The translations under genes and the position numbers were made by a program. A DNA stretch of 64,000 nt from Flavobacteriales bacterium (GTDB taxonomy: Bacteria > Bacteroidota > Bacteroidia > Flavobacteriales > Flavobacteriaceae), in assembly GCA_026996605.1 (NCBI GenBank), contig JALWLE010000063.1:1-64000 (forward strand). Reading direction: 5' to 3'. This document shows, piece after piece, positions 57,956 to 61,455 of the stretch (within the stretch, counting starts at the first letter, position 1; the number at the start of each line of letters is the position of its first letter). The notes under the pieces are model-generated. The model saw only the letters and a list, made by a program, of their open reading frames with translations. It searched no databases and had not been told where the DNA came from.

Positions 57956-58909
57956 TTATTCGGCTTTGACCAATTCTACATCAAAAATTAAATTGGCATT
58001 AGGCGGAATGACACCACCGGCGCCGGATTCACCGTAAGCCAAATAAGACGGAATTACAAATGTGGCTTTATCACCTTCTTCCAAAAGTTGAATACCTTCA
58101 TCCCAACCCGGAATTACATAACCCACTCCTATAGGAAACTCAATAGGTTCACCACGTCCGTAAGAATTGTCAAACACGGTACCATCAGCTAATTTGCCAA
58201 CGTAATGAACCGCTACATTTTTGCCTTTTTGCGGTTTTTTGCCACTATTACTCTTATGCGTGATTTTATACCGTAAGCCTGATTTGGTTTGTTCAAAACC
58301 CTCAGCTAATTTGTTTAAAGCCGCTTCTGCAGCCTCCTTAGCTTTTTGTTCTCTTTCAGCTTTGGCATTGTTAAACGCGGTAAAAGCTTCGGGTGCCTTA
58401 AATGCTTCGGCTTTATCTCCAACTCTAATGATTTCAATATTTTCTATTTTATCACCTTGTGCAATCTTATTCACAACATCTTGTCCTTCAACCACTTTTC
58501 CAAAAACCGTATGTTTTCCGTCTAACCAAGGTGTTGCTTCGTGTGTGATAAAAAACTGACTGCCGTTGGTACCCGGACCGGCATTAGCCATTGATAAGAC
58601 ACCTGCACTATCGTGTTTTAAATCGGGGTGAATTTCATCATCAAATTTATAACCCGGACCACCGGATCCTGTTCCGGTAGGGTCACCACCTTGAATCATA
58701 AAATTGTCAATAACACGATGAAAGGTCAAGCCGTCGTAATATTTTTTATCTTTATGTGCATCGGCAACTTCAGGATGATTCCCTTCAGCCAATGCTACAA
58801 AATTAGCAACGGTTCCGGGAGCTTTTTCATATTCTAAGTTGGCTAATATCTCGCCTTTATTTGTTTTGATTTTGGCATATAAGCCTTCGGGTAATTTTTT
58901 TGTATCCAT
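57956..58909 (-). CDS. Dual-family immunophilin: cyclophilin-FKBP fusion
   Basis: A 317-residue cytoplasmic peptidylprolyl isomerase combining two unrelated folds. Residues about 8-165 are a cyclophilin ('[20 protein letters not shown]' with catalytic Arg, 'GSQFFIT', '[12 protein letters not shown]'). A charged helical linker (about 170-205) joins it to an FKBP (about 207-317: '[19 protein letters not shown]', '[23 protein letters not shown]', '[23 protein letters not shown]'). Active-site residues of both halves are intact. Cyclophilin-first fusions (CFBP) have been described from Flavobacterium. Confidence 0.95.
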
Positions 58910-58925: not shown

Positions 58926-58957
58926 TAAAAAGCCAAAGCGCATAAAGCGCCTTGGCT
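58926..58957 (-). terminator. Intrinsic terminator of the histone-fold gene
   Basis: AGCCAA-A-GCGC (58931-58941) pairs with GCGC-C-TTGGCT (58947-58957) with one mismatch; a T run follows on the minus strand. It separates the histone-fold gene from the immunophilin gene downstream. Confidence 0.75.
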
Positions 58958-58979: not shown

Positions 58980-59429
58980 TTACAATAGAGTTTCAAAAAT
59001 AACTTTAGCTCTTTCCCAATGTGCTGTTTGGGGATTTTTGAGTTTAGGTTCTAATGTTTTAAAGGTTTTGATTAAAGCCATTAAAATACCGCCGGCAATA
59101 TTAGGCAATTCTTGCTCAACATCTTCGCCAATAGCTAATTTTAATGGTGGCATTTTGGTAATTGCTTCCAAAATACCTTCCAAATCCAATTCTTCATTAA
59201 GCTCTCTAAACTCTTGAATTTGAGCTTCCAAACCTTCGGTAATTGGTAAATCTGTATACCATAATACATCTCTACCATTTAATGAAGCGTTTTTCATCCC
59301 CACAGTGAGTAATCTGTAAATGACTTCATTTGTAAAATCGTAAATTCTTCTTACATCTGATTTGTCAATGTCCAAACTACCTGCTTTTCTAAAAAAAGCT
59401 TCAAATTTTGATACTCCAATTAATGACAT
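58980..59429 (-). CDS. DUF1931 double histone-fold protein
   Basis: A 149-residue cytoplasmic protein. It matches, nearly end to end, the DUF1931 (PF09123) proteins I recall from Thermus and Aquifex, whose crystal structures show two histone folds in one chain: 'SKFEAFFRKAGSLDIDKSDVRR' (about 7-28), 'NASLNGRDVLWYTDLPITEGL' (about 47-67), 'IQEFRELNEELDLEGILEAI', 'LPNIAGGILMALIKTFK' and 'LKNPQTAHWERAKVIFETLL' at the end. The first fold spans about 5-67, the second about 82-149. Basic DNA-contacting residues are fewer than in archaeal histones, so DNA binding is not assured. It is monocistronic, with its own promoter and terminator. Confidence 0.88.
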   Translation of the reverse strand: MSLIGVSKFEAFFRKAGSLDIDKSDVRRIYDFTNEVIYRLLTVGMKNASLNGRDVLWYTDLPITEGLEAQIQEFRELNEELDLEGILEAITKMPPLKLAIGEDVEQELPNIAGGILMALIKTFKTLEPKLKNPQTAHWERAKVIFETLL

Positions 59430-59458
59430 ATTTTTCTAATTTTTTGATTAATATTCGG

Positions 59459-59489
59459 CAAAGATACGACAATATGAAGCTGATGTCAA
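59459..59489 (-). promoter_or_regulatory. Promoter of the histone-fold gene
   Basis: On the minus strand TTG (59487-59489), 20 bp, then TATCTTTG (59459-59466), followed by CC. This is close to the ideal Bacteroidota promoter; the start codon follows 29 bp later. Confidence 0.7.
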
Positions 59490-59530: not shown

Positions 59531-60565
59531 TCACTTGATATATTCCAAGCTAAAGCGCGTACCTTTTTCCAAATCCCGATTAACCTTTTTGCCTATAACT
59601 TCATTTAAATATTTAGGATGCAACCCAAAACCCGGACGTATTGATCTGACCAATTCTTCTGTAATAGTCGTGCCTTCGGGTATATCTTTTACTACGTAAA
59701 GTGACCGAGCAAACCGCCGGCTTTGTTGTGCTTTTTCAGATAAATCATAATCTACTTTTCCTAAAGCTTTTTCTGTTTGTCTGACGGCATCAACCATTTT
59801 TTTAAATTCTCGTTCGTCCAAGGAAAAACCGGCATCCGGACTGTCAATATTTTTGTTTAAAATCAAATGTTTTTCAATCACTTTTGCACCCAAAGCCGTA
59901 GCAACAACCGGTGCTAGTTCACCTCCGGTATGGTCAGATAGACCCGACAATACATCAAATCGCCTAGCCAAATCGGGTATCATCAACAAATTGGCATCGC
60001 TGATATCAGCCGGATATTGTGAAGATGTTTTCAATAAAACTATTTGATTATTACCTTGTAATCGACAAGTTTCTACAGCTAAAGCAATGTCTGCTTCGGT
60101 AGCAATTCCCGTAGAAATAATCACCGGTTTTTGTTTTGAAGCGACATATTCAATCAAAGGAATATCGGTAATTTCAAAACTGGCAATTTTATAAGCCGGT
60201 ACATCTAAACTTTCTAAAAAATCAACAGCCGTCTTATCAAATGGTGATGAAAAACATATCAAACTTTCTTCACGCGCAGTTTCAAACAAAGGTTGATGCC
60301 ATTCCCAAGGCAAATAGGCATTTTGATATAATTCATATAAAGTTTTACCATCCCAAATGGTACCTTTGATTTGAAAATCCGGTTTTTGACAGTCAATTGT
60401 GATGGTATCCGGGGTATAAGTTTGCAATTTTATGGCGTTGGCACCGGCACGTTTTGCCGCACGTATGGTTTCTTTGGCTATTTCCAAATCACCACCGTGA
60501 TTGGCTGACAATTCGGCAATAATAAAAACTCCGTCATTTAGCAAATCAAAATGTCCTATTTTCAT
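59531..60565 (-). CDS. pseI: Pseudaminic acid synthase (PseI; NeuB superfamily)
   Basis: A 344-residue enzyme condensing PEP with an N-acetylated hexose to a nine-carbon nonulosonic acid. NeuB TIM barrel (about 10-270): 'IIAELSANHGGDLEIAKE', 'GANAIKLQTYTPDTIT', 'SSPFDKTAVDFLE', 'YKIASFEITDIPLI', 'LSDHT', 'KVIEKHLIL'. C-terminal SAF (antifreeze-like) domain (about 285-340). The segment 'GTIWDGKTLYELYQNAYLPWEWH' and 'SSPFDKTAVDFLE' favour PseI over NeuB. The usual neighbouring pseB/C/F/G/H genes are not present. Confidence 0.87.
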   Translation of the reverse strand: MKIGHFDLLNDGVFIIAELSANHGGDLEIAKETIRAAKRAGANAIKLQTYTPDTITIDCQKPDFQIKGTIWDGKTLYELYQNAYLPWEWHQPLFETAREESLICFSSPFDKTAVDFLESLDVPAYKIASFEITDIPLIEYVASKQKPVIISTGIATEADIALAVETCRLQGNNQIVLLKTSSQYPADISDANLLMIPDLARRFDVLSGLSDHTGGELAPVVATALGAKVIEKHLILNKNIDSPDAGFSLDEREFKKMVDAVRQTEKALGKVDYDLSEKAQQSRRFARSLYVVKDIPEGTTITEELVRSIRPGFGLHPKYLNEVIGKKVNRDLEKGTRFSLEYIK

Positions 60566-60756: not shown

Positions 60757-61455
60757 ATGGATCAACATAACAACATCTTAAATGTACCGGCTACTACATC
60801 AATAGAACGTGTGCAATTTTACAAAAAAACTTATCTCAATGTTGCTCTGGGCGTTTTGGCTTTTATCATTATTGAGTATATTTTCTTGCACTCAGCAACT
60901 ATCGTCAAATTTGCACTTTCTTTAACCCAAGGTAAAATGTGGCTGCTGATGTTAGGTGGTTTTATGTTGGCAACCACCTATGCCGAACGTATGGCAATCA
61001 GAAGTACCGATTTGAGAAAACAATATTTGGGATATTTGATTTACATCGTAGCAGAAGCTTTTATTTTCGTTCCTATATTATTGTTCGCATTAATTTACAC
61101 CAATAATGCAGAAGTTGTCAAACAAGCAGCTGTTTTAACCTTGAGCTTATTTACCGGTTTGAGTGCCGTCGTGCTTTTGACTAATAAAGATTTTTCTTTT
61201 TTACGTTCTGCTTTAACTATTGGCGGATTTATAGCCATGGGCTTGATTGCTGCCGGCATTTTATTCGGTTTTAATTTGGGCTTATGGTTTTCTGCAGGTA
61301 TGATTGTTTTGGCAGCCGGTAGTATCTTATATCAAACTTCTAATTTGGTTCATAAATACCGTACCGACCAATATGTTGCCGCTGCACTAGGACTGTTTGC
61401 TTCGTTAATGTTACTGTTTTGGTATATTCTTCGAATTTTGATGTCGCGTAAATAA
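60757..61455 (+). CDS. Bax inhibitor-1/YccA-like membrane protein
   Basis: A 232-residue protein with seven membrane helices after a polar N-terminus of about 25 residues. 'ERVQFYKKTYLNVALGVLAFIIIEY' and the C-terminal 'ILYQTSNLVHKY...YVAAALGLFASLMLLFWYILRIL' match the BI-1 (Bax1-I) family, although the usual Asp in 'YDTQ' is replaced (YQTS). Bacterial members have been proposed as pH-sensitive calcium leak channels or as FtsH modulators. Confidence 0.85.
   Translation: MDQHNNILNVPATTSIERVQFYKKTYLNVALGVLAFIIIEYIFLHSATIVKFALSLTQGKMWLLMLGGFMLATTYAERMAIRSTDLRKQYLGYLIYIVAEAFIFVPILLFALIYTNNAEVVKQAAVLTLSLFTGLSAVVLLTNKDFSFLRSALTIGGFIAMGLIAAGILFGFNLGLWFSAGMIVLAAGSILYQTSNLVHKYRTDQYVAAALGLFASLMLLFWYILRILMSRK

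Follow-up and report, generated by a model that had tools for sequence, protein, structure and literature searches.

A double histone-fold (DUF1931) gene with its own promoter and terminator in a flavobacterial genome, and the frequent chaperone neighbours of its relatives

The DNA analysed here, referred to as the window, comprises the first 64,000 nucleotides of contig JALWLE010000063.1 from a Flavobacteriales bacterium. It contains a gene for a DUF1931 protein, which is listed in Table 1 together with its flanking features. The gene itself ends at position 59429, and positions 59430-59489 are taken up by leader and promoter. A gene for a Bax1-I (BI-1-like) membrane protein (60757-61455) is divergent from the NeuB gene. 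Scans of the window for Rfam families and tRNAs gave no matches.

Table 1. Features at the DUF1931 locus (positions refer to the window)
Feature	Position	Strand	Remarks
Cyclophilin + FKBP peptidyl-prolyl isomerase fusion	57956..58909	(-)	317 aa; downstream gene
Intrinsic terminator	58926..58957	(-)	hairpin 58957-58931 + T-run
DUF1931 (PF09123) gene	58980..59429	(-)	149 aa from ATG; two predicted histone folds, one chain
Promoter TTG-N20-TATCTTTG, Bacteroidota-type	59459..59489	(-)	29 nt 5' of ATG
NeuB-family synthase with SAF domain	59531..60565	(-)	upstream gene

The gene product matches the PF09123 profile over practically the full domain (residues 9-145, profile positions 1-137 of 138) with an E-value of 1.9e-48 and a score of 164.6 bits, the cut-off being 21.8. 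A phmmer search of the PDB identified 1WWI (TTHA1479 of T. thermophilus; E 6.6e-41, residues 3-149) and 1R4V (AQ_328 of Aquifex; E 8.7e-15), and these two DUF1931 proteins are the sole convincing PDB relatives by sequence. An earlier note, made from the letters alone, had assigned the protein to this family by its full-length likeness to Thermus and Aquifex proteins, and both searches agree with the assignment. The NCBIfam search with the same protein assigned no family. The gene adds a new member to an established family, in a host unusual for it.

The AlphaFold2 model computed from a 56-sequence alignment reached a pLDDT of 91.5 and a pTM of 0.87. The order of its helices corresponds to two histone folds, formed by residues 3-17, 23-50 and 65-77 (fold 1) and 83-92, 102-126 and 135-148 (fold 2). 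Foldseek combined with VIA-align gave 1WWI the highest rank (Z 21.2, rmsd 1.6 over 146), ahead of 1R4V (Z 18.4); H2A-H2B dimers and SAGA subunits came next with Z-values of about 9. According to the model, the chain folds as an intramolecular pseudodimer of two histone folds, which is the architecture that the earlier note had expected from a structure prediction.

The same note had described the gene as a self-contained unit with promoter and terminator. At the promoter, TTGACA-17-TATCTT is matched at 10/12 positions, the best value among nine promoter-like sites between 58000 and 60500; the number of sites in this interval is at chance level both for promoters (9 vs 7.1 in shuffles) and for terminators (2 vs 1.8). 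Across the window, a loose Bacteroidota promoter pattern occurs about twice as often as expected (18 vs 7.8), and the strict form TTGA-N18..20-TAT.TTTG four times vs 0.7 expected. Since such pattern counts alone are near chance, it is conservation that supports the two calls. The motif TTGA...GTAT[C/A]TTTG is kept in all nine close relatives (the window plus eight), with the C/A exchange as the single variable position of the box, and sequences farther upstream diverge. The terminator hairpin and its T-run are likewise present in 9/9 loci; 98.9% of the cells are paired, three of the ten stem pairs show changes on both sides, and the covariation score was matched by none of 500 shuffles. The description as a self-contained unit therefore holds.

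Within the genus and among near relatives, DUF1931 is under strong purifying selection, with a median dN/dS of 0.063 (25 of 36 pairs, namely those with dS < 1.5). With respect to codon adaptation to the ribosomal-protein region, the gene ranks second among 144 genes from seven stretches including the window, a rank to which its slightly higher A+T content compared with the window may add. Given the conserved promoter and terminator, the low dN/dS and the codon adaptation, the gene is judged functional and probably well expressed rather than a relic, in line with the earlier note. In PMC10627809 (correction: PMC11521991), the relatives TTC1115 and aq_328 are counted among the highly expressed histone-fold genes, and PMC13140390 discusses TT_C1115 among the DUFs of a 'Less Permissive' transposon class.

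The source genome is a MAG of 2.38 Mb and 97% completeness. Its eight close relatives among the matches listed are 89-99% identical and stem from Flavobacteriales/Flavobacteriaceae MAGs. The sample codes 134-614 and 4281-140 appear in a study of hydrothermal vent deposits from the deep sea (PMC9793634); for the remaining samples we infer a vent habitat. DUF1931 was found in seven of 13 genomes of the genus, in none of 27 other genomes of the family/order sample outside the genus, and in seven of 395 genomes of the phylum sample, own genome included, so that its presence in a flavobacterial chromosome is indeed unusual. The earlier note had also described the family as one mainly of thermophiles, but many carriers are mesophiles: Amycolatopsis, Streptomyces, Kribbella, Nostoc, Bradyrhizobium, Ramlibacter and Microbacterium all possess it, which rules out a thermophile-only distribution. 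In addition, DUF1931 occurs in 21 plasmid records. A phage origin was rejected, as a search of 50,697 phage records at E 1e-5 gave no hit.

A tree of 83 sequences unites the flavobacterial copies with those of a Bacteroidales MAG and a Chitinophagales MAG in one clade (100/100), which is separate from the copies of Kapaibacterium and Rhodothermus. A recent transfer from Thermus or Rhodothermus was considered. The best tree places this Bacteroidota vent clade near an Actinomycetota MAG (92/89); topologies joining the clade to Thermaceae (p 0.38) or to Rhodothermaceae (p 0.16) were not rejected by AU tests. Near-identical DNA is common to the copies of Actinomyces, Microbacterium and a Lysobacteraceae genome, and transposase genes are close by in Actinomyces and Lysobacteraceae. 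Actinomyces provencensis (L050:9943-16210) has three copies of one 574-bp DUF1931 stretch in a segment of 6.3 kb, adjoined by Mutator-family transposase genes. Two loci, one from a Lysobacteraceae and one from a Microbacterium genome (L059 and L060:9936-10825), share 890 bp including DUF1931 at 100% identity, which reflects either a very recent cross-phylum transfer or contamination of an assembly; L059 has an IS91-type transposase gene downstream.

Next to DUF1931, the isomerase gene is present in the window and in all eight close flavobacterial relatives, the copy of L019 running off its contig. The upstream neighbour varies: L015 has NeuB like the window, L019 and L021 have a permease at this place, L016 and L020 a sulfatase-family protein, L017 an aminotransferase, and L014 a penicillin-binding protein. 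The DUF1931 copies of Bacteroidales and Chitinophagales have neighbours other than the isomerase. In two members of the genus (G005 and G012), the isomerase gene comes immediately after an amino-acid permease gene, and no DUF1931 match is present; the order in L019 and L021 is permease (80-82% identical to that of G005/G012), DUF1931, isomerase. As the site matches otherwise, DUF1931 is dispensable in G005 and G012. These two are the empty sites among the six genus genomes lacking the gene. G006, whose contig ends within the isomerase gene, was left out of this scoring, and in G002, G004 and G010 the isomerase paralogue was the only isomerase gene found. This paralogue, 55-58% identical, exists in 12 of 13 genus genomes, the 13th (G004) giving a partial match of 56%. 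As to gain or loss of DUF1931 in the genus, a tree of the isomerase gene, comprising eight carriers and the two empty sites, had too weak a signal to favour either; L019 was excluded, its isomerase being cut by the contig end. The adjacency concerns a folding enzyme, with a terminator between the two genes, and could be a chance arrangement inherited in one lineage.

None of the queried chaperones is encoded in the 64-kb window, where DUF1931 has no such gene within 10 kb; Hsp20, ClpB and thioredoxin were among the queries that found no match in the window. The sole Hsp20 gene of the source genome is located on another contig. In the Bacteroidota vent clade, a queried chaperone neighbour was found in 0/10 loci (4.7-20 kb each).

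The neighbourhoods of more distant relatives have a different composition. Unsupervised clustering of neighbouring ORFs from 79 loci among the matches listed gave as top clusters a TrxR with cNMP domain (14), ClpB (12), a dnaK-antisense ORF (12), aldehyde dehydrogenase (12) and Hsp20 (11). Aldehyde dehydrogenase, ABC transporter and SDR clusters, which are large superfamilies, were not counted as linkage. The neighbour initially labelled 'NAD-GH', delivered by a longest-ORF gene finder, was discarded as an antisense ORF, the direct search yielding DnaK in its place; direct dnaK searches located this gene in 18 of 77 loci among the matches listed. PF10712 (NAD-GH) is, as we assume, an antisense reading of dnaK. 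One match to it, at L038:18314-20446, falls on an apparent dnaK-antisense ORF, and annotations built on PF10712 may be spurious.

The relatives had been gathered via two peptide patterns, among the matches listed, and are not a random sample; Aquifex and archaea are not part of it, and it includes close kin, such as four Nostocales, five Amycolatopsis and three Bradyrhizobium. After two partial loci (L091, L092) had been dropped from the 79, 77 loci remained, 30 of which belong to named genomes. For these, tblastn was used to count seven chaperone families (DnaK, GrpE, DnaJ, ClpB, Hsp20, GroEL, GroES) within about 10 kb of DUF1931. A chaperone was found at 22 of the 30 named-genome loci vs one of 60 random 20-kb regions (Fisher p 2e-13; matches listed); collapsing genera by hand gave 14 linked groups out of 20. 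Fourteen of the 30 genomes supplied the control regions, which lay on contigs in the Hsp20 list, a choice that would if anything raise the chaperone count of the control; the chaperone queries were drawn from linked loci, which may favour the detection of linked copies. Among the 47 other loci, many of them on short contigs, 13 were linked, giving 35 of 77 in all among the matches listed, and no chaperone was seen at the remaining eight named and 34 other loci. Hsp20 was near DUF1931 at 11 of the 30 named loci vs 0.36 expected from Pfam counts in the 30 whole genomes, and TrxA and TrxR were neighbours at 19/30 and 14/30, respectively (matches listed). Mapped on the tree of 83 sequences, the label linked/unlinked (TrxR included) changes at least 17 times as a raw count; these changes may mean many losses as well as gains. 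One DUF1931 locus free of queried chaperones nearby, that of Sulfurivirga caldicuralii (L067:10001-11428), has a convergent gene for an RsmF-like rRNA methyltransferase beside DUF1931.

Further loci, which had not been used to form the linkage idea and come from families already showing linkage, were chaperone-linked in 17 of 18 cases. Among Thermaceae, 12 of 14 genomes carry DUF1931, and Hsp20 lies directly upstream on the same strand in all 12 carriers (nine of them new), with 26-73 nt between the aligned blocks. A Rhodothermaceae-like family possesses DUF1931 in six of seven genomes, each with a divergent Hsp20 gene at a distance of about 0.7 kb (6/6, four new), and in genome G068 the genes for ClpB, DnaJ, GrpE and Hsp20 are near DUF1931. 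Five of 80 Pseudonocardiaceae genomes are carriers; three of the four new ones are linked, and L216 is not. G402, whose contig is also that of the Kapaibacterium locus L075, contained no queried chaperone.

On plasmids, chaperone genes were present in 8/8 regions examined, out of the 21 records. Rhodococcus/Nocardia plasmids have the order general stress protein-dnaK-grpE-dnaJ-cbpM-clpB-trxA-zinc finger-TrxR-DUF1931, and in three of them the gap between the TrxR-type gene and DUF1931 is 13 bp; the TrxR-type gene is annotated as thioredoxin reductase in one plasmid and as FAD-dependent oxidoreductase in two. Another plasmid of this type has a similar order up to clpB, followed by an annotation gap before DUF1931. 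Cyanobacterial plasmids contain DnaK-thioredoxin-Hsp20-GroEL just upstream on the opposite strand, with GroES as well in Trichormus, and in a Streptomyces plasmid dnaK-grpE-dnaJ and DUF1931 are about 7 kb apart. The chaperone partners vary by lineage: GroESL, ClpB/DnaK/TrxR, or Hsp20 alone. A plasmid of Aquicella lusitana (L149:4866-8622) has two Hsp20 genes followed by a DUF1931 gene that is interrupted by a Tn3-family element.

That many relatives lie beside chaperone genes points to proteostasis. We propose, with a probability of roughly one half, that the family does not package DNA but assists protein quality control during heat or oxidative stress, the histone dimer serving as a scaffold that binds proteins. 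The pseudodimer would operate within the heat or redox stress response, and candidates for the bound partner are Hsp20, Hsp20-client complexes, the ClpB/DnaK machinery and thioredoxin reductase. Hsp20 or Hsp20-client complexes appear most plausible because Hsp20 and DUF1931 form the tightest pair. DUF1931 would then be co-transcribed with chaperones and function together with them; the vent Flavobacteriaceae copy, placed under its own promoter beside the cyclophilin-FKBP isomerase, may keep the family's job. For a more specific version we put the odds a little under even: a histone fold was recruited into proteostasis as a dedicated Hsp20/ClpB-DnaK partner and moved between phyla on islands, the vent copy being an independent stand-alone derivative. 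The direct basis of these proposals consists of the family assignment, the fold model, the acidity of the proteins (see below), the conserved promoter and terminator, the purifying selection and the physical linkage of relatives to chaperone genes; gene context is silent on what DUF1931 binds.

Three other explanations were weighed. DUF1931 might be a hitchhiker, i.e. a mobile gene carried along by stress islands whose function is unrelated to theirs, for example metabolic or redox. The plasmid- and transposase-associated copies and the 890 bp shared by a Lysobacteraceae and a Microbacterium genome would fit, as would the fact that TrxA and TrxR are as frequent as neighbours as single chaperones. 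We nevertheless regard a mere passenger as improbable, given the Hsp20-DUF1931 pairs of all Thermaceae carriers, the differing chaperone partners of the lineages, and the strong purifying selection in the genus and near kin.

An even less probable alternative is a chromatin or nucleoid-associated protein: its histone fold would bind DNA, perhaps in a non-specific manner during stress, and the nucleoid would be organised or protected by it. The earlier note had spoken of a chromatin or stress protein and expected a basic face. The predicted protein has a pI of 4.91 and a net charge of -6, and the 77 full-length relatives among the matches listed all have pI values of 4.8-6.34; none of them exceeds 6.34 and is basic as a DNA-packaging histone would be, the measure being whole-protein charge. 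The residues D22, K23 and D25, located in loop 1 and at the start of helix 2, which we take to be where histones hold DNA, are invariant in 56 aligned proteins. Two surveys (PMC12701072, PMC11390915) describe DUF1931 proteins as devoid of histone DNA-binding residues, and a low pI is implied in PMC10919886. Acidity sets DUF1931 apart from a chromatin protein; moreover, the genomic linkage is to protein chaperones, and two HU-family genes already exist in the genome. What speaks for a role in chromatin is the true double histone fold near H2A-H2B dimers (Z ~9), the strong expression in Thermus and Aquifex cited above and the high codon adaptation of the window gene; a DNA protector is conceivable within stress islands. 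Of the two terms in the earlier note, 'stress' agrees with the chaperone neighbours of the relatives, and 'chromatin' does not. Least likely is a regulator or adaptor that, like histone-fold TAFs, contacts a transcription factor or RNA polymerase and so governs the stress regulon that encodes it: histone folds do occur in SAGA-type complexes (chains 9rdk_I and 7ktr_I, Z ~9.5) and DUF1931 is placed within stress gene clusters, but in the genus it has a promoter of its own, and the chain of 149 residues offers no separate DNA-binding element.

One survey (PMC13088155) says of the DUF1931 pseudodimeric histones that 'their functional role is unclear', and another (PMC11390915), which also treats operons of other histone classes, speaks of 'potential roles beyond genome organization'. 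No claim of a DUF1931-chaperone link was found in the passages, titles and abstracts searched, and Hsp20 is unmentioned in the main texts of the DUF1931-related papers searched for chaperone terms. The family-level chaperone context is the interesting part of this analysis, as it makes the function of DUF1931 directly testable in Thermus; Hsp20 and DUF1931 resemble one operon in 12/12 Thermaceae carriers, which allows a cheap direct test. If our proposal holds, a histone fold has come to act on proteins, the function of 'histones without DNA binding' would be proteostasis, and counts of 'bacterial histones' that include DUF1931 mix two different biologies.

Four known systems can be compared. 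The first are the tLST islands (locus of heat resistance): DUF1931 relatives are likewise found in plasmid clusters with Hsp20, DnaK, ClpB, thioredoxin, YfdX or GroESL, whereas the window gene lies outside any such island. To our knowledge, the classical tLST gene list does not contain DUF1931, and a search of titles and abstracts found nothing joining a histone to the locus of heat resistance. The second are the alpha3 histones of bacteria, for example HBb from Bdellovibrio, which share the histone fold; the first fold of DUF1931 aligns weakly with 9ezz_A (Z 3.6, 57 residues). HBb is a single fold and, according to PMC12701072, has been shown to bind DNA; DUF1931 is a double fold, acidic, and reportedly devoid of such DNA-binding residues. 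The third are eukaryotic non-nucleosomal double folds, namely Son of Sevenless (SOS), whose double histone domain binds lipids (PMC11390915), and SAGA subunits. They resemble our proposal in using the fold for protein or lipid interaction, and reach Z-values of 7.7-9.5, which may reflect a common arrangement only; they are parts of large proteins or complexes, with an identity to DUF1931 of about 11%. Closest are the DUF1931 pseudodimeric 'histones' themselves (1WWI, 1R4V), with which the window protein shares full-length homology, the double fold, acidic relatives and the stand-alone domain; the window copy differs in having its own promoter and terminator and, unlike the copies in all 12 Thermaceae carriers, in not being located beside Hsp20.
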